NCBI GenBank assembly: GCA_001443495.1
Contig: LDXR01000012.1
Span: forward strand, 37,117 to 101,116
Source: a candidate division NC10 bacterium CSP1-5
GTDB taxonomy: Bacteria; Methylomirabilota; Methylomirabilia; Methylomirabilales; CSP1-5
Reading direction: 5' to 3'
Length of the DNA stretch: 64,000 nucleotides
Shown piece after piece: positions 43,370-53,175 of the stretch. Made by a program: the position numbers and the translations under genes. Positions within the stretch are counted from its first letter, which is position 1. Every line of letters begins with the position of its first letter. Below the pieces are notes generated by a model, which was not told the DNA's origin, did no database searches, and worked only from the letters and a program-made list of their open reading frames with translations.

Positions 43370-44218
43370 TCATTGTTGCTTTCGTTGGTTTTTGTCAAGG
43401 CCTTCCTGAAGAGGCCTGTGGGGACTTCCGCGCATCATCGGCCCCCGTCGTGGCCGGTGCATCTCCTCGACGTGTCGGCCGATCCGCTCCTCTTCCGTCA
43501 CCGTCTCCCGGCCGCCGAGCGAGTCGATGAAGAAGACCAGGGCCCAGACCTCCTTCTCTTCCAGGGCGTCTTGGTAGGAGGGCATCGGTGTGCCATCGAG
43601 GCCAGTCATCATGCTCCGATACAGGTCTTGAGGCGTCGCACCGCCCTTGAGTGGCCGTTGCGTGAGGTCCGCCGGCTTGATCCGCAGGTCCGGGGCCGAC
43701 GGGCCGTCGCCCTTCCCCCCCTCACCGTGGCACTCCGGGCACCCCGCCTTCTTGTAGATCACCCTCCCGCTGGCAACGAGCTTTGGGGTCTTCGGCGGTG
43801 GGACGGGGATCGGAAGCGGGGCCTGCGCCTTCTCGAGGGCGAATCGCTCTGAGAAGGACTTGATGTATGCGACGACGGCCCCGATCTCGTCATCCGAGAG
43901 GTGGTCCTGGGGGACCATGGCGGTCCCCCGCACCCCGGATTTCACCGAGCGGAAGAGGTCGCTGTCCAGAGGCAGGGAGCCGGACGGCGTCGATCGGAAC
44001 TTGTACTTGCCCTCCCGAAAATCTCTGGGGGGTGTCTGGAACATGTGGGCCGCCATCCCCTGCCCGTCTCCCAAGAGCCCGTGGCAGACCCCGCAATGCT
44101 CCTCGTACAGGCGTTTGCCGGTGTCCAGGGTCTGCTTCCCATCGGTCGCGAGGCCCATGGAGGCGAGGAACATCCCCAAGATTATCGCCAGAGAAGGGGC
44201 CACTAATCTCATCCTCAT
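43370..44218 (-). CDS. Exported diheme cytochrome c
   Basis: A protein of 282 residues with a signal peptide (RLVAPSLAIILGMFLASMGLA). Two class I cytochrome domains carry CGVCH (about residue 43) and CPECH (about residue 163). Distal methionines are likely GTAMVPQDHL and GTPMPSYQDAL. The C-terminus is basic and Arg/Pro-rich (EEMHRPRRGPMMRGS). It is an electron carrier in the periplasm. ATG 44218 follows GGAGGA. It diverges from the cupredoxin gene, sharing a regulatory gap. Confidence 0.9.
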   Translation of the reverse strand: MRMRLVAPSLAIILGMFLASMGLATDGKQTLDTGKRLYEEHCGVCHGLLGDGQGMAAHMFQTPPRDFREGKYKFRSTPSGSLPLDSDLFRSVKSGVRGTAMVPQDHLSDDEIGAVVAYIKSFSERFALEKAQAPLPIPVPPPKTPKLVASGRVIYKKAGCPECHGEGGKGDGPSAPDLRIKPADLTQRPLKGGATPQDLYRSMMTGLDGTPMPSYQDALEEKEVWALVFFIDSLGGRETVTEEERIGRHVEEMHRPRRGPMMRGSPHRPLQEGLDKNQRKQQ

Positions 44219-44241
44219 CTCGGTTCCTCCGCCGGGATCCC

Positions 44242-44271
44242 TTGACAATACACTGGGGAGCTTGGTATAAA
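44242..44271 (+). promoter_or_regulatory. Promoter of the first cupredoxin gene
   Basis: TTGACA at 44242-44247 and TATAAA at 44266-44271 with an 18-bp spacer, in the divergent gap between the diheme cytochrome and the cupredoxin. Confidence 0.65.
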
Positions 44272-44337
44272 CATCACACGCCGACACGAACCTTCGCGTT
44301 GCTCCCTAACCATCCGTCATTGCGAGGAGGTGGTGCG

Positions 44338-44706
44338 ATGCACAGACTATGGATCGGCTGCGGCATTGTCGCCCTTGGCGTCGTCCTGGCCGTGGGATCG
44401 CCACCCGATGCGGCCGCAGCGGATTTCACCCTGGTGAACATCGAGTTCGAGGGGTCCAAGGTCTGGGTTCCCGGACCGATCGTCGTCAAGAAAGGGGACA
44501 CCGTCAAGATCAAAGCCATCAACAACGTCAAGTCGGATCCGGCCGAGCACGGCATCGCCATCGAGGCCTTCGGGGTCAAACAGGTGGTGAACCGCGGGAA
44601 GCCGGAGACCGTGGAGTTCCAGGCCGACAAGGCCGGGATCTTCCCGATCACCTGTCATCTCCACCCCGCCCACATCGGGACACAGCTGATCGTCCAGGAG
44701 CAATAG
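44338..44706 (+). CDS. Periplasmic cupredoxin
   Basis: A protein of 122 residues with a signal peptide (ALGVVLAVGSPPDAAAA). The copper site is formed by AEHGIAIE (His) and the C-terminal loop ITCHLHPAHIGTQL, where Cys and His ligands are close. No axial Met follows in the usual place; the His-Pro-Ala-His arrangement recalls nitrosocyanin or Cox2-like loops. GAGGAGGTG precedes the ATG and a strong terminator follows, so it is monocistronic. Confidence 0.85.
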   Translation: MHRLWIGCGIVALGVVLAVGSPPDAAAADFTLVNIEFEGSKVWVPGPIVVKKGDTVKIKAINNVKSDPAEHGIAIEAFGVKQVVNRGKPETVEFQADKAGIFPITCHLHPAHIGTQLIVQEQ

Positions 44707-45564: not shown

Positions 45565-45597
45565 TTGACAAATTGTTTATTTAGACTAGCCTAAATA
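45565..45597 (+). promoter_or_regulatory. Promoter and DtxR-like operator of the multicopper oxidase operon
   Basis: TTGACA at 45565-45570 and a -10 TAGCCT at 45587-45592. The palindrome TATTTAG-N6-CTAAATA (45578-45597) overlaps the -10 and resembles operators of the DtxR/MntR family. A DtxR-type regulator is encoded in the operon. TTTTCCGGAAAA, a separate 12-bp palindrome, lies at 45549-45560. Confidence 0.7.
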
Positions 45598-45646
45598 TCG
45601 TTTTCATGGCGCCAATACCAGGTCTTGCCTGATGGAGGTCCCAGGT

Positions 45647-46738
45647 ATGGATGAGCAACGGCACATGGGAAGACAGTCATCTCTGTTGACCGCAGGCCTG
45701 AACCGTCGCCAGTTCCTCGGCGGCCTCGTGGGGCTGGGCTTTCTCGGCACGGGGACGTCGGCCCTGGCAGATTCCCCGAAGGCGCCGCCGGCCAAGGGGG
45801 GAGGGCATGGGATGCACCCGGGGGCGCCGGCGCCCTATCCCACCCATCCCGCCGAAGCACCGAAGGGTCTCCCCGCCGATCTTCCTTCCCCTCTGCGGGT
45901 CTCGGATCCGATGACGTTCCTCACCAGCTTTGACACCGGCCGAGTGACGCGGCTCCCCGACGGCCGGGTCCAGCGAGAGTATGGCGTCATCGCGCTGGAC
46001 GGCGAGGCCGAGGTGGCCCCGGGGGTCAAGTTCCCCGCCTGGACCTTCAACGGCTATGTGCCGGGCCCGACGCTGCGCTGCACCGAGGGAGACTTTGTTA
46101 AGCTCCACTTCCTGAACCAGTCCAGCATGCCCCACACGATGCACTTCCACGGCTTTCATCCGGCCAACATGGACGGAGTGTTCGAGGTCGTCCCCCCGGG
46201 AGGGCATTTCACCTATGAGTTCACGGCGGACCCTTTCGGTCTCCACCTGTACCACTGCCATGTGATGCCGATCAAGAAACATATCCACAAGGGGATGTAC
46301 GGGGCCTTCATCATCGATCCCCCGAAGCCCAGGCCGGCCGCGAAAGAGATGGTGATGGTCATGAACGGCTTCGACACCGATTTCGACAATGAGAATGAGT
46401 TCTACACCGTCAACGGTGTGGCCAACTACTATGTCGAGCACCCCATCGAGATCCGGCAGCACGAACCGCTCCGCATCTATGTGGTCAATCTCCTGGAGTT
46501 CGATCTCATCAACTCTATCCACACCCACGCGACCTTCTTCAAGTACTTCCGGACGGGGACCCGCCTGGACCAGTACGAGTATACCGACACGGTGATGCTC
46601 TGCCAGGGCGAGCGGGGGATCATGGAGTTCAGCTACCGGTTCCCGGGGATGTTCATGTTTCACGCCCACCAGAGTGAGTTTGCGGAACTCGGATGGATGG
46701 GGTTCTTCAAGGTGCTGCCGGCGGAGGGCAAGGCATGA
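45647..46738 (+). CDS. Two-domain multicopper oxidase, Tat-exported
   Basis: A protein of 363 residues. The Tat signal is LNRRQFLGGLVGLGFLGTG, followed by a His/Pro-rich linker. Domain 1 has HTMHFHG and LYHCHVMPIKKHIHKGMYG; domain 2 has HTHATFF and FHAHQSEFAELGWMG. The Cys of the type 1 site is present only in domain 1, while the four HxH pairs for the trinuclear site are complete. This is a laccase-like two-domain enzyme and not a nitrite reductase (which lacks HCH). It probably oxidises metal ions or small reductants; the neighbours favour a metal. GGAGGT precedes ATG 45647. Confidence 0.93.
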   Translation: MDEQRHMGRQSSLLTAGLNRRQFLGGLVGLGFLGTGTSALADSPKAPPAKGGGHGMHPGAPAPYPTHPAEAPKGLPADLPSPLRVSDPMTFLTSFDTGRVTRLPDGRVQREYGVIALDGEAEVAPGVKFPAWTFNGYVPGPTLRCTEGDFVKLHFLNQSSMPHTMHFHGFHPANMDGVFEVVPPGGHFTYEFTADPFGLHLYHCHVMPIKKHIHKGMYGAFIIDPPKPRPAAKEMVMVMNGFDTDFDNENEFYTVNGVANYYVEHPIEIRQHEPLRIYVVNLLEFDLINSIHTHATFFKYFRTGTRLDQYEYTDTVMLCQGERGIMEFSYRFPGMFMFHAHQSEFAELGWMGFFKVLPAEGKA

Positions 46739-47913
46739 ACCGCATCCGTCTCATCCTCTTTGCCCTGCTGCCCCTGGTGCTCCTCGGGGCCATGATCGGC
46801 CTCTTGCTGTCGTCAGAGACGCTGCTCCTGGGCCCCTCGCCGGTCCCCCCCGAGGCGCTCCAGCGCCTCACGCTCGAGCGGATGGCCTTTTACCCCGGCG
46901 AGATCGTCGTGTGGGTCCGCAATACCGGGCCGGGCCCGGCACGGATCGGGCAGGTCTTGGTCAACGAAGCCATCTGGAGCTTTGACGTGACGCCCGGGCC
47001 GGAGCTCAGCCGTCTCGCCCGGGCCACGGTGACGATTCCCTACGACTGGGTCGAGGGCGAGCCGCATGAGGTCAGGCTGATCACCGACGCGGGACTCGTC
47101 TTTAAGAAGCAGGTCGACGTCACCACCGCAACGCCGGTCCCCGGCTGGCGCTACTTCGGCCTCTTTGCCCTCCTCGGCATCTATGTCGGGGTCATCCCGG
47201 TCTTCCTCGGTCTGCTCTGGTTTCCGTTTCTCACCGCCGTGAGGGGGCGGTGGATGGAGGGCCTCCTGAGCTTTACCGTCGGCCTCCTCGCCTTTCTCGG
47301 CCTGGATGCCCTCAAAGAGGCCTTCGAGGCGGTGGGGCAATTGGGGCCGGTCTTCAAGGGCGAGGCCCTGGTCGTGCTCGGCCTCTTCGGGACCTTCTTC
47401 GGCCTCGTCGCGCTCGGGCAGCGGAGGAAAGGGGAGGAACAGGAGGTCGCGCCGAGTGGCTTGCGGCTGGCGTATCTCATCGCGCTCGGCATCGGGCTCC
47501 ATAATCTCGGGGAGGGGTTGGCCATCGGGGCCGCCTACCAGCTCGGCGAGGTGGCGCTGGGGGCCTTTCTGGTCCTCGGCTTTACCATCCACAATACGAC
47601 CGAGGGCCTGGCGATCGTCTCGCCGATCCTGCGGGCTCCACCACGCCGATATCATTTCCTGCTCCTGGGGCTCGTGGCGGGGGCGCCGACCATCGCGGGG
47701 ACGTGGATCGGGGGTCTCACGTATTCGGTGCTCATGGCGATCCTCTTTCTAGCGATCGGCGCTGGGGCGATCTTCCAAGTCATCTATGAGATCGTAAGGT
47801 TCCAGGCGCGACGGAGACCGGTCCTGCAGGTCCTGACCGTCCCGCATAATCTGGTGGGGCTCGTGCTGGGCTTCCTCGTCATGTATGTCACGGGACTGTG
47901 GGTCGCGGTCTAG
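46735..47913 (+). CDS. ZIP-family metal permease with extracytoplasmic N-terminal domain
   Basis: A protein of 392 residues. One N-terminal helix is followed by about 110 residues outside the membrane with an Ig-like beta pattern (YPGEIVVWVRNTGPGPARIG). The rest is a ZIP core with two signatures, HNLGEGLAIG and HNTTEGLAI, the metal-site motifs of helices 4 and 5. The extra domain is not part of standard ZIP proteins. ATGA overlap couples it to the multicopper oxidase. It likely imports iron, manganese or zinc. Confidence 0.88.
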   Translation: MNRIRLILFALLPLVLLGAMIGLLLSSETLLLGPSPVPPEALQRLTLERMAFYPGEIVVWVRNTGPGPARIGQVLVNEAIWSFDVTPGPELSRLARATVTIPYDWVEGEPHEVRLITDAGLVFKKQVDVTTATPVPGWRYFGLFALLGIYVGVIPVFLGLLWFPFLTAVRGRWMEGLLSFTVGLLAFLGLDALKEAFEAVGQLGPVFKGEALVVLGLFGTFFGLVALGQRRKGEEQEVAPSGLRLAYLIALGIGLHNLGEGLAIGAAYQLGEVALGAFLVLGFTIHNTTEGLAIVSPILRAPPRRYHFLLLGLVAGAPTIAGTWIGGLTYSVLMAILFLAIGAGAIFQVIYEIVRFQARRRPVLQVLTVPHNLVGLVLGFLVMYVTGLWVAV

Positions 47914-47931
47914 GTTGACCGGAAAGGATGG

Positions 47932-48426
47932 ATGAGCATGACCAGAGAAAGGGAAAAACGATTGGCCGCCCTGGTTCTCGGGGTTCTCGTTTTCGTGGCC
48001 TTCTGGCCGGCGGCATCGGCCGCTCCGCCCCCGGCCACCCGGACCTTCACCATGGCCGCCGTCGAGCCGAAAGGGGGGACGACCGTCGATAAGGAGCCCT
48101 TCCCGCGCGATCCCCTGCCGGAGGGGAAGGGGTATGTGCTGAAGGAGCCCGATCCCAAGACCGGGCGATGGGAGGTGTCCACCTACCGGTGGGAGCCATC
48201 CCAGATCGTGGTGTATCAGGGGGACACGGTTGTGCTCGAGATCCTGGGGGTGAACGGCGACGTCCACCCCGCTCGGATCGAGGGGTACGTCCCCGGCTTC
48301 GTGGTGCGGCGCGGCACCCTTACGCGGCTCACCTTCACGGCCGACAAGGCCGGGTTCTTCACGATCGAGTGCACAACCCACCAGCCTTCCATGGTGGGCA
48401 CCCTGGTCGTCCTGCCGCGCCAGTGA
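47932..48426 (+). CDS. Periplasmic cupredoxin of the multicopper oxidase operon
   Basis: A protein of 164 residues with a signal peptide (LAALVLGVLVFVAFWPAASA). Copper ligands are predicted in NGDVHPARIEGY (His) and FFTIECTTHQPSMVG (Cys, His, Met). It is distinct from the upstream cupredoxin and about 40 residues longer at the N-terminus. It may shuttle electrons from the oxidase to the cytochrome encoded at the operon end. GGAAAGG precedes ATG 47932. Confidence 0.85.
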   Translation: MSMTREREKRLAALVLGVLVFVAFWPAASAAPPPATRTFTMAAVEPKGGTTVDKEPFPRDPLPEGKGYVLKEPDPKTGRWEVSTYRWEPSQIVVYQGDTVVLEILGVNGDVHPARIEGYVPGFVVRRGTLTRLTFTADKAGFFTIECTTHQPSMVGTLVVLPRQ

Positions 48427-48440
48427 TGATGGGAGGCACA

Positions 48441-49118
48441 GTGACGGAGTTTCGACCGGTCAGCCAGGCGGTCGAGGATTATCTCAAGGCGATCTACCGC
48501 CTCGAGCAGCGCGAGGGCAAGGTGACGACCACAGCGCTGGCGCTCGCGCTGCATGTGGCGGCCCCATCGGTCACGGCGATGGTCAAGCGGCTGCATGCGA
48601 TGCGCCTCGTCCGCTACATCCGGTATCGGGGGGTGGTCCTGACGGCCGCCGGCAGGCGCATGGCCCTCGAGGTGATCCGCCACCATCGCCTGCTCGAGCT
48701 GTATCTGGTCGAGGCGCTGGGCCTGCCGTGGGACCAGGTGCACGCGGAGGCCGATCGACTCGAACATGTGATCTCGGAAGAGCTGGAGGAGCGGATCGCC
48801 GAGCGCCTCGGTCACCCCGTAGCCGATCCGCACGGGGACCCGATCCCCACCAAGGCGGGGCAGGTCAAAGAGCCTCCAGGCTTCCCCCTGAGCGAGCTCA
48901 ATCCGGGAACGGCGGCCGTGATTCAACGGGTCGCGGATCAGGACCCGGCCAAGCTTCGGTATCTCGCTACGCTCGGTCTGTTTCCCCAGGTTCGGGTGAC
49001 GCTTCTCGAGAAGGCTCCCTTTGGCGGGCCCATGTCATTGGCAGTGGGTGAGACCCGCTGTACCCTGGGCGGAGAGCTCGCCCGTCAGATCCTGGTTGTT
49101 CCCGTTGAAGCGGCGTGA
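48441..49118 (+). CDS. DtxR/MntR-family metal-dependent repressor
   Basis: A protein of about 225 residues. Winged helix: VEDYLKAIYRLEQREGKVTTTALALALHVAAPSVTAM and LVRYIRYRGVVLTAAG. Metal-binding and dimerisation domain: HHRLLELYLVEALGLPWDQV then HAEADRLEHVISEEL. A C-terminal SH3/FeoA-like domain (RYLATLGLFPQVRVTLLEKA) completes the DtxR/IdeR architecture. GTG 48441 has GGGAGG four bases upstream; ATG 48426, overlapping the previous stop, is the alternative. It probably senses iron or manganese and binds the palindrome at 45578-45597. Confidence 0.93.
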   Translation: MTEFRPVSQAVEDYLKAIYRLEQREGKVTTTALALALHVAAPSVTAMVKRLHAMRLVRYIRYRGVVLTAAGRRMALEVIRHHRLLELYLVEALGLPWDQVHAEADRLEHVISEELEERIAERLGHPVADPHGDPIPTKAGQVKEPPGFPLSELNPGTAAVIQRVADQDPAKLRYLATLGLFPQVRVTLLEKAPFGGPMSLAVGETRCTLGGELARQILVVPVEAA

Positions 49119-49122
49119 GCCG

Positions 49123-49560
49123 ATGGAGCGCCACCGTGACCGGATGGGCCGGAGCGCGACCGGGGGCGCCTTGCTTGCGCTCCTCCTGGTTGTTTCCGGG
49201 TGTGGAGGCGGCGGAAATCCGCAAGACGGAGAGCGGATCTACGCCGAGCGCTGTGGCTCGTGTCACGGGGAGACGGGGTCAGGGGATGGTCCCACGGCCA
49301 GACTTACGGGGATCAAACCGGCGAACCTGGCGGTGGCGATTCGGGAGAAGTCCCGGGCCGAGATCCTCGGAACGATCAGCAAGGGTAGGCAGGCCATGCC
49401 CGCCTTTGGCCGTATCCTGACGGACGCGGAGCGCGAGGCGGTGTATCAGTACCTCCGGACACTGGCGGAGAAACGCGCGGCCGTCTCGCCAGGGCTCGAT
49501 CCCACAGGAGACCGGGGACTCAGGCAGGAGCAGCAGATACGGGGGGCGCCGAGGAGGTGA
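49123..49560 (+). CDS. Lipoprotein monoheme cytochrome c
   Basis: A protein of 145 residues. The signal ends in LLVVSGC (lipobox) followed by a Gly-rich tether. Heme site CGSCH with upstream DGERIYAERCGSCHG, and an axial Met in RQAMPAFGRILTD. It begins four bases after the DtxR stop and is the last gene of the operon, so it is likely a membrane-tethered electron acceptor for the cupredoxin or oxidase. Confidence 0.87.
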   Translation: MERHRDRMGRSATGGALLALLLVVSGCGGGGNPQDGERIYAERCGSCHGETGSGDGPTARLTGIKPANLAVAIREKSRAEILGTISKGRQAMPAFGRILTDAEREAVYQYLRTLAEKRAAVSPGLDPTGDRGLRQEQQIRGAPRR

Positions 49561-49565
49561 CGAAG

Positions 49566-49596
49566 CAAAAAGCCCGGAAGGTCCGGGCTTTTTTGT
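49566..49596. terminator. Bidirectional intrinsic terminator
   Basis: AAAAAGCCCGGA and TCCGGGCTTTTTT arms around AGG. The A-run and U-run make it functional in both directions: for the cytochrome operon on the plus strand and for the tRNA gene on the minus strand. Confidence 0.85.
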
Positions 49597-49600
49597 TGCC

Positions 49601-49676
49601 TGGTGGAGCTGAGGGGATTCGAACCCCCGACCTCGTGACTGCCAGTCACGCGCGCTCCCAACTGCGCCACAGCCCC
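49601..49676 (-). tRNA. tRNA-Ala (anticodon GGC)
   Basis: A 76-base cloverleaf on the minus strand. The acceptor stem GGGGCTG pairs with CAGCTCC and contains the G3-U70 wobble that identifies alanine tRNAs. The anticodon stem-loop CGTGA-CTGGCAG-TCACG gives anticodon GGC. The TTCGAAT T-loop is present and the 3' CCA is encoded. A terminator follows immediately. Confidence 0.96.
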
Positions 49677-51616: not shown

Positions 51617-51806
51617 TTGACAGGACCCGGGGGAAAAGGGTAGCGTCAGCGCAGCTTTCGTGATTGGCTTGTTGTGGAAACGGGAACCGCAAGGGCTTCA
51701 TGAAACGCCCTTGCGGTTTTTGTATGCCGTCGGGTCCCGCCGCGGTGGGGCCTCGCCTCCCGGGCGGTCCCCGGGGATCCTTACACGAAGGGAGGGAGAA
51801 CAGCAC
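51617..51806 (+). promoter_or_regulatory. csp1 promoter and attenuator-like leader
   Basis: TTGACA 51617-51622 and TAGCGT 51641-51646, then a leader of about 155 bases. A perfect 12-bp stem (51685-51696 with 51707-51718) is followed by TTTTT at 51717-51721, a terminator-like hairpin ahead of the gene. A second GC-rich hairpin and a CCCGGG stem precede the SD GGGAGGGAG. Shared with the csp2 and csp3 leaders. Confidence 0.75.
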
Positions 51807-52010
51807 ATGCGAAGCACTGGCTCCGTGAAGTGGTTCAACGACGCCAAGGGCTACGGATTCATCTCGCGACCGGACGGCGACGATGTTTTCGTGCACCATA
51901 CGGCGATCCAGGGCGAAGGATTCAAAAGCCTGAGCGAAGGCCAGGAGGTTGAGTTCGACGTCGTGGACGGACCAAAGGGCAAGCAGGCGGCGAACGTCGT
52001 CAAGCGCTAA
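51807..52010 (+). CDS. Cold-shock protein 1
   Basis: A protein of 67 residues, a single CSD beta-barrel. RNA-binding motifs RNP1 (KGYGFISR) and RNP2 (DVFVHHTAI) are intact. It binds single-stranded RNA and DNA and acts as an RNA chaperone and antiterminator. The sequence differs from csp2 by only a few residues. It has its own leader and terminator. I leave the symbol blank because the csp letter cannot be assigned. Confidence 0.95.
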
Positions 52011-52033
52011 CCGATCCGATCCCGTTGTGGATA

Positions 52034-52071
52034 GCAAGGGCCCCGAGATCCTCGGGGCCCTTGCGCTTTTT
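52034..52071 (+). terminator. csp1 terminator
   Basis: GCAAGGGCCCCGAG (52034-52047) pairs perfectly with CTCGGGGCCCTTGC (52051-52064) around ATC, followed by GCTTTTT. Confidence 0.9.
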
Positions 52072-52137
52072 CCCGGGCCTCGCTGGGACCGCTGTCAAGG
52101 CCAGGCGCGACGGGCGCCCGTCCTGACAAAATACCCC

Positions 52138-52326
52138 TTGACAGGACCCGGGGGAAAAGAGTAGCGTCGGCAGAGCTTTCGTGATCCGCTCGTTGTGATC
52201 GTCAAGACCGCAAGGGCTTCATAGAAAGCCCCTGCGGTTTTTTTATGCCGTCGGGCCCCGCTGCGGCGGGACCGCGCCCCCCGGAGAGACCCGGGGATCC
52301 TTACACGAAGGGAGGGAGAAGAGCAG
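52138..52326 (+). promoter_or_regulatory. csp2 promoter and attenuator-like leader
   Basis: TTGACA 52138-52143 and TAGCGT 52162-52167; the promoter block is nearly identical to that of csp1. Terminator-like stem 52207-52217 with 52228-52238 (one mismatch) followed by seven T at 52238-52244, then two GC-rich stems and GGGAGGGAG before the ATG. Confidence 0.75.
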
Positions 52327-52530
52327 ATGCGAAGCACTGGCACCGTGAAGTGGTTCAACGACGCCAAGGGCTACGGATTCATCGCGCGACCGGAAGGTCC
52401 CGATGTTTTCGTGCACCATACGGCGATCCAGGGCGACGGATTCAAGACCCTGACCGAAGGCCAGGAGGTTGAGTTCGACGTCGTGGACGGACCAAAGGGC
52501 AAGCAGGCGGCGAACGTCGTCAAGCGCTAA
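52327..52530 (+). CDS. Cold-shock protein 2
   Basis: A protein of 67 residues with the RNP1 motif KGYGFIAR and RNP2 DVFVHHTAI. It is almost identical to csp1, and the whole transcription unit (promoter, leader, gene, terminator) repeats with about 520-bp spacing, so this is a recent tandem duplication. Differences from csp1 are concentrated in a few loop residues (PEGPD for PDGDD, TLTE for SLSE). Confidence 0.95.
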
Positions 52531-52553
52531 CCGATCCGATCCCATTCTAAATA

Positions 52554-52591
52554 GCAAGGGCCCCGAGATCCTCGGGGCCCTTGCGCTTTTT
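52554..52591 (+). terminator. csp2 terminator
   Basis: The same 14-bp perfect stem as csp1, 52554-52567 with 52571-52584, then GCTTTTT. On the minus strand the adjoining membrane-protein gene ends close by. Confidence 0.9.
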
Positions 52592-52598
52592 CCCCAGC

Positions 52599-53048
52599 CT
52601 ACCGGGACCGAAAGTACGGCCCGAGGTCGTAGACGAAGATCCCGACAAAATACATGATCGCCCCAACCACGGAAGCCGCGATGACGGCGAACACGAGCTG
52701 TCCCAAGAGGGGCAAGGTATTCTGGCGCACCTGCCGGGGCAGAAGGAAAAAGAGCAATGGCAGGATGATTCCCATGCCGATCAGGACTTCCGTACCGAGC
52801 CCGGTGGTTACGCGACCCCAGAAAGTCCAGGGAAGGCTTTTCCACGAGTTCAACACGGCTTTCGCGGCCCACGTGCCACGAGAGGCCCGGATTTGCGCGA
52901 GGTAGATTCCGGCCGAGGCCCCCAGGATGACTGCGGCCATCCACAGCAATCGAACGAACCAACTGGGATGATCTGCAGACGAAGTTCTGTACTCGGTCAC
53001 CGCTCTTGCCCTCCCGTCCGCCCGAAAAGCGGAACGGCACCCCGTCAT
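52599..53048 (-). CDS. Predicted membrane protein, unknown function
   Basis: A protein of 149 residues with three hydrophobic helices (FVRLLWMAAVILGASAGIYL, LIGMGIILPLLFFLLP and LVFAVIAASVVGAIMYFVGI). The N-terminal 30 residues are polar and may belong to a shorter gene starting at a later codon. I see no family signature. It is convergent with csp2. Confidence 0.6.
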   Translation of the reverse strand: MTGCRSAFRADGRARAVTEYRTSSADHPSWFVRLLWMAAVILGASAGIYLAQIRASRGTWAAKAVLNSWKSLPWTFWGRVTTGLGTEVLIGMGIILPLLFFLLPRQVRQNTLPLLGQLVFAVIAASVVGAIMYFVGIFVYDLGPYFRSR

Positions 53049-53175
53049 CCGAAGAGCATTGCAACGATTGTGCCGGAAGTATCGCGTTCACCGGCCATTA
53101 TCATCTTGACACGGGCACGGAAGAAAGGTTAAGCAAAGGGTAGTTTGTGGAGACACTGGGTCAGGGGGGTAGACA

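Follow-up and report, generated by a model that had tools for sequence, protein, structure and literature searches.

The ferroxidase-permease pair Fet3-Ftr1 is described from fungi and also from Nitrosococcus (PMC9723733), and the adjacency of the multicopper oxidase (MCO) MCO1 and a ZIP-family permease has been named in ammonia-oxidising archaea (AOA; PMC5817080, PMC5767755, PMC7785015). MCO1 was stated to be exclusive to AOA, where its role is called elusive and where even viruses of soil AOA carry it (PMC11849493); copper uptake has been proposed for the AOA pair (PMC7785015) and hydroxylamine oxidation for the MCO (Kerou 2016, in the passage of PMC5767755 that cites it). Here we describe an operon of the candidate division NC10 bacterium CSP1-5 (genome of 2.77 Mb, 99.7% complete), located at positions 45,565 to 49,560 of a 64,000-nucleotide stretch of contig LDXR01000012.1 (positions 37,117 to 101,116, hereafter the window), that holds the same pair in the same order, an MCO of the MCO1 lineage and, immediately after it, a ZIP permease. 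From sequence comparison, the conserved unit is a two-domain MCO followed by a ZIP with an extra beta-sandwich domain. We propose, with a probability of about 60%, that it is a manganese- or iron-repressed uptake module, often moved horizontally, whose obligate core of MCO and ZIP is under its own DtxR/MntR-family repressor, the oxidase acting beside the ZIP.

As in Fet3-Ftr1, an MCO and a membrane permease are encoded or act together, and the leucine at the axial position of the type-1 (T1) copper of Fet3 is also that of most homologues of the window MCO. The two systems differ in the permease, which is FTR1 with its REXLE motif in one case and a ZIP in the other, and in the oxidase, which has three domains there and two here. 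Whereas the literature on AOA MCO1 treats it as exclusive to AOA and relates it to copper or hydroxylamine, the lineage described here occurs in bacteria and other archaea, is borne by plasmids and stands under a candidate DtxR/MntR operator. The features of the window operon are the following (Tat, twin-arginine translocation):

45632..46738 (probable true start 45647), + strand: Tat-exported two-domain multicopper oxidase (Pfam, PDB matches)
46735..47913, + strand: ZIP-family permease with an extra N-terminal transmembrane helix and an extracytoplasmic beta-sandwich (Pfam, structure model)
46837..47148, + strand: beta-sandwich within the ZIP, with a FlaF/FlaG-like fold, a candidate domain for docking of the oxidase (fold comparison)
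45580..45595, + strand: candidate operator of the DtxR/MntR family, palindrome TTTAGaCTAGcCTAAA (motif match)
48426..49118, + strand: DtxR/MntR-family regulator with three domains, helix-turn-helix, metal/dimerisation and FeoA/SH3 (Pfam, ligand alignment)
47932..48426, + strand: exported cupredoxin, weakly nitrosocyanin-like, accessory (domain search)
49123..49560, + strand: lipoprotein monohaem cytochrome c, accessory (Cytochrome_CBB3, lipobox)
45565..45570, + strand: TTGACA, possible -35 element seen by eye, weak, with no matching -10 by scan
about 49564..49597, + strand: strong intrinsic terminator hairpin GCCCGGA-AGG-TCCGGGC followed by a T run (z -3.6)

Read directly, all five genes are real, and they are tightly packed in the order MCO, ZIP, cupredoxin, regulator and cytochrome c, with intergenic junctions of -4, +18, -1 and +4 bp. 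Stop and start codons share 4 bp between MCO and ZIP (ATGA) and 1 bp between cupredoxin and regulator (TGATG). This bears out the compact same-strand cluster noted in an earlier reading of the letters alone (the original prediction), whose family assignments also agree with our domain searches, the cupredoxin being the sole weak one. A consensus promoter scan found no + strand promoter at the operon start, and the unit is closed downstream by an opposite-strand tRNA gene (49604-49676).

A scan with the ZIP alignment, using one genome per species, recovered at least 445 relatives, the best 80 of which were analysed, a sample biased towards close relatives of the window ZIP. They come from NC10 (among them L032-L034, NC10/Methylomirabilota), Chloroflexi, Gemmatimonadota, Planctomycetota, Acidobacteria, Armatimonadota, Firmicutes, Woesearchaeota, Thaumarchaeota and others. 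In 74 of these 80 loci, by the distance limit of the script, the gene immediately upstream, on the same strand, encodes an MCO (median gap 54 bp). Two of the six exceptions are truncated contigs (L051, L089), in two others the MCO is slightly further away (L054, L060), L052 has a second ZIP besides its MCO-ZIP pair, and the last, L068, is considered below. Among 95 NC10 genomes, the MCO lineage (>580 bits) and the ZIP are present in the same 11 (Fisher 1e-14); other NC10 MCO or NirK proteins score <166 bits in the MCO search, and unrelated NC10 ZIPs never have an MCO alongside. Among 200 genomes of Gemmatimonadota, both genes are found in the same 36, always adjacent (Fisher 6e-39), and one further, more distant MCO (1e-96) occurs without a ZIP. 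Pairwise identities of the MCOs and of the ZIPs are correlated (r = 0.74; permutations at most 0.09), a value to which shared species history contributes.

The original prediction had made conservation of the five-gene order in related genomes a test of its reading. In the genomes of relatives only the MCO-ZIP order is constant and a DtxR gene is frequent; the five-gene order was rejected, since the window cupredoxin was seen here only and cytochrome c or other cupredoxin genes recur in a minority of MCO-ZIP loci. The system is real and conserved, broader and simpler than first thought, and the idea of a metal oxidation and uptake system gains support from an MCO-ZIP order kept across very many phyla.

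The operator, which the original prediction had missed, is the sequence TTTAGACTAGCCTAAA, 37-52 bp ahead of the MCO start as annotated. It is a near-perfect DtxR-family palindrome, matching one half of the classical iron box TTAGGTTAGSCTAACCTAA at 12 of 14 positions, and was found once in the window (0.01 expected). The exact site TTAGNNTAGNCTAA has a single copy in the 2.77-Mb genome, at this operon; a wide operator regulon was rejected for this genome, where one-mismatch sites are no commoner than those of a reversed-pattern control. With the consensus TTAG-N6-CTAA, fixed beforehand from DtxR boxes and the window site, 47 of 91 upstream regions of homologous operons scored at least 11 of 14 (about 2.7 expected from shuffles), and the operator is often present where no dtxR gene is adjacent. 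Every one of the 20 AOA copies has it, 38-77 bp ahead of the MCO; these copies come from related genomes and are not 20 independent cases. The exact site is single, at MCO1, in three of the four AOA genomes searched; the fourth, with two MCO1-type copies, has the symmetric site twice and two further non-symmetric matches.

A DtxR/MntR-family gene lies within 4.5 kb of the pair in 37 of the 80 loci. The window regulator (Fe_dep_repress, Fe_dep_repr_C and FeoA in Pfam) has the primary ligands D, D, E and H, which are MntR-type, with D at both positions 10 and 102; it lacks the M10 and C102 that mark DtxR/IdeR-type iron sensors. Across the linked regulators position 10 is D (one N) and position 102 is E, D or H (one N), and the M10/C102 pair of IdeR is never present. 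Two structures come close: 5zr4, which we take to be MntR of Mycobacterium tuberculosis and which has the same three-domain DtxR-family architecture, and 8pvt, presumably a Deinococcus DtxR-type protein. The first-shell ligands of both are identical to those of the window regulator except for the D in place of E at 102, and the window regulator differs from both in its link to an MCO-ZIP operon. It reaches 218 bits against the NCBI MntR model (cut-off 350), and two regulators encoded beside the pair on plasmids of Shinella and Pseudosulfitobacter exceed the NCBI cut-off for manganese MntR. An NRAMP gene lies directly downstream of the ZIP in seven loci, and FeoA/FeoB and VIT genes neighbour the pair in others. 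Because of the operator, the MntR-type ligands, the neighbouring regulators that pass as MntR and the NRAMP, Feo and VIT genes, the predicted regulation fits manganese or iron and points to manganese as the likelier signal, in keeping with the iron or manganese control suggested originally. No manganese riboswitch was found near the pair in 11 loci or in the window.

DtxR-MCO-ZIP clusters were also observed in DPANN archaea with putatively reduced genomes (L075, L088, L098, L087, L107, L094 and L096), and in six of these seven an NRAMP gene directly downstream completes a three-part metal cassette.

The MCO consists of two cupredoxin domains (Cu-oxidase_3 and Cu-oxidase_2 in Pfam), with the T1 copper in domain 1, and possesses the T1 cysteine and eight trinuclear histidines of two-domain multicopper oxidases. 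These eight histidines and the T1 ligands H168, C209 and H217 are invariant in 61 sequences; at the axial position, 222, 58 of the 61 have Leu and the window protein has Met. Its closest solved matches (E about 1e-104) are the two-domain MCO structures 7rab and 3gdc, the latter presumably from Arthrobacter, whose records carry no assigned function. A copper nitrite reductase (NirK) was rejected (TIGR02376, 94 bits against a cut-off of 296). The complete trinuclear site indicates that the window MCO is able to reduce O2 by itself, so the cupredoxin and the cytochrome would not be required as electron sinks, and the exit of electrons through them, as originally envisaged, is not needed.

The permease matches the ZIP family in Pfam at 40.2 bits (cut-off 35.1), and has neither an FTR1 Pfam match nor a REXLE motif. 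Its structure model is confident (predicted local distance difference test, pLDDT, 90) and has the 8-helix fold of BbZIP (Z 19.3 over 224 residues). The M1-site His and Glu residues of BbZIP and the ZupT-GufA ZIPs are retained (H256, E260, E290); in the alignment H256, N257, E260, N287 and E290 are invariant and H286 nearly so. By contrast, where ZupT-GufA ZIPs carry HNxPEG, this lineage has HNLGEG or HNTTEG, in which the kink prolines are gone, and the second-site acids of ZupT-GufA and BbZIP are replaced (N287, T319 or A). The window ZIP further differs from them by its N-terminal transmembrane helix and beta-sandwich. This N-domain has no Pfam match, and its nearest fold is that of the archaellum stator proteins FlaF/FlaG (4p94/5tuh; Z 12.1, root-mean-square deviation 1.6-2.2), which use it for extracytoplasmic contacts in the stator.

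In the phylum of L068, 20 MCO loci of this lineage were fetched, and in each of them the next gene is the ZIP. Archaeal AmoA was detected in 22 of 22 genomes tested (those 20 and two others), so the MCO-ZIP pair there is the MCO1+ZIP pair of the AOA literature. In the tree, AOA MCO1 forms one clade inside a mostly bacterial MCO lineage, grouped with actinobacterial plasmid copies (support 0.91) and with Chloroflexi (0.99). Copies of the ZIP occur on 150 plasmids, of which 74 were typed as conjugative; annotated MCO-ZIP examples come from Arthrobacter, Rhodococcus, Nocardia, Rubrobacter, Shinella and Microvirga, and further ones from Pseudosulfitobacter, Peribacillus, Pseudanabaena, Deinococcus and haloarchaea. 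Arthrobacter sp. FB24 and Rhodococcus erythropolis PR4 are among the strains with a plasmid-borne pair. On a plasmid of Deinococcus sp. KNUC1210 (L173:3680-5491), a single open reading frame encodes a ZIP and a two-domain MCO. The ZIP part of this fusion is without the beta-sandwich, and its MCO part, with the T1 Cys in domain 2, belongs to a different MCO class; ZIP-MCO coupling therefore seems to have had more than one origin, on the strength of one fusion instance. The original prediction knew of no described ZIP-MCO system of this layout. The pair itself is named in the AOA papers; a full-text literature search, with subscription papers outside it, found no account of the bacterial distribution, of DtxR/MntR control or of a fusion, and these three aspects appear to be new.

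The two remaining genes of the operon are local, lineage-specific redox accessories. The window cupredoxin has the type-1 pattern His...CxxHxxxM and a Pfam Cupredoxin_1 match below cut-off (E 6e-4), and a hidden Markov model built on it retrieved no homologue in the fetched loci. The cytochrome c carries a single CxxCH and a VSGC lipobox.

Other redox genes were observed beside the pair. In haloarchaeal plasmids (L172, L178), DtxR, MCO, ZIP and plastocyanin genes stand in a row, close to the gene set of the window, and Candidatus Methylomirabilis sp. MAG-BB-18 (L058) has MCO, ZIP, DtxR and cytochrome c, the window layout minus the cupredoxin, with a ZIP in two pieces that looks interrupted by a frame break. 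Plasmids of Rubrobacter, Nocardia and Rhodococcus (L167, L168, L171) carry a Rieske 2Fe-2S gene downstream of the pair, and in two of them it comes right behind the ZIP. Upstream of the window operon, a second exported cupredoxin (44335-44706, + strand) is nitrosocyanin-like (TIGR03096, E 1e-16, below cut-off) and contains the motif CHLHPAH, and is possibly a protein of the red-copper type; a dihaem cytochrome c (43370-44287, - strand) is encoded near it. Elsewhere in the window (51660-53091) are two adjacent, near-identical cold-shock-protein-like open reading frames, with shared antisense text.

In the uptake module that we propose, low intracellular Mn(II) (or Fe(II)) would cause the repressor to leave the TTAG-N6-CTAA operator, and MCO and ZIP would then be made. 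The Tat-exported oxidase would work outside the membrane beside the ZIP with O2 as electron acceptor, probably docked on the added beta-sandwich, and the ZIP would import the metal; induction by starvation and the inward direction are both what we infer from this arrangement. As for the metal and the coupling chemistry, our leading suggestion, a tentative one drawn by analogy, is that Fe(II) would be oxidised by the MCO and then passed on to the permease, as in the Fet3-Ftr1 pair. Somewhat less probably, the oxidase would clear the entrance of the transporter of Fe(II) or Cu(I), so that the ZIP could take up Mn(II) cleanly. The fuller claim of a very widespread prokaryotic, Fet3-Ftr1-like, oxidase-coupled metal importer, made of a two-domain MCO and a ZIP with a dedicated MntR-type repressor, we hold at a little under even odds.

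Several observations weigh against the uptake module. ZIPs are established divalent-metal carriers, and to be handed a metal in oxidised form would be out of the ordinary for them. No operator is recognisable in about half of the operons or in most plasmid copies, several of which lie among copper or heavy-metal genes and would suit a copper role. L068, a lone ZIP in a marine AOA whose genome has no MCO of this lineage, is a real exception. Finally, copper limitation in N. viennensis raises MCO1 and the neighbouring permease, modestly (log2 fold change 0.81 and 1.33, respectively; PMC7785015).

The last observation would be expected if the MCO oxidised Cu(I) to Cu(II) for import of Cu(II) by the ZIP, as proposed for AOA, and so would the rise of MCO1 in copper-limited N. 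maritimus (as cited in passages of PMC12448741 and PMC11849493) and the PCuAC, SCO and P-type ATPase genes beside some plasmid copies. Copper acquisition is nevertheless an unlikely explanation, as the operator and linked regulators belong to the iron/manganese DtxR/MntR family with MntR-type ligands, and a copper-starved cell with a dead copper oxidase would fall into secondary iron or manganese starvation, from which an induction just as modest would be expected. Marginally less likely still is a protective or efflux-side role, in which the MCO would remove toxic external Fe(II) or Cu(I) and the ZIP would be a separate, co-regulated importer of another metal. CueO-type oxidases have such a periplasmic role and metal-resistance genes neighbour the pair on plasmids, but the near-invariant adjacency in both directions, the mirror-tree correlation and the ZIP-MCO fusion argue for joint action, and an operator of the metal-repressor type implies that scarcity of the metal, rather than a surplus, induces the genes.

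Oxidation of Mn(II) is known from some MCOs, and the linkage to MntR-type regulators would also agree with an MCO that itself converts Mn(II) to Mn(III)/(IV), whether to detoxify it or to gain energy. A metal-repressed promoter would switch such an oxidase off precisely when manganese is plentiful, and we regard this reading as improbable. We give least weight of all to respiratory electron input or hydroxylamine oxidation with electrons leaving via cupredoxin or cytochrome c, which seems highly improbable: the carrier genes of the window operon, the cupredoxin, cytochrome or Rieske genes that follow in a minority of other loci and the hydroxylamine proposal for AOA (in the passage of PMC5767755 citing Kerou 2016) speak for it, but most loci have no such carriers, the trinuclear O2 site is intact, the MCO lineage occurs in many organisms not known to oxidise ammonia, and all 20 AOA copies have an operator of the metal-regulator type.

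The MCO-ZIP unit would belong to a known kind of system, oxidase-permease metal uptake, and its distribution suggests a common route for iron or manganese that possibly works like Fet3-Ftr1. One marine AOA has been noted to be without any diagnostic inorganic iron-uptake system (PMC9723733), and the pair is a candidate for such a system. It also bears on the function of AOA MCO1, through the question of control by iron or manganese or by copper. If the proposal is true, AOA MCO1 would be re-assigned from copper or hydroxylamine to iron or manganese uptake, and the coupling of an oxidase to a ZIP would be a general aerobic route of iron or manganese uptake in bacteria and archaea.

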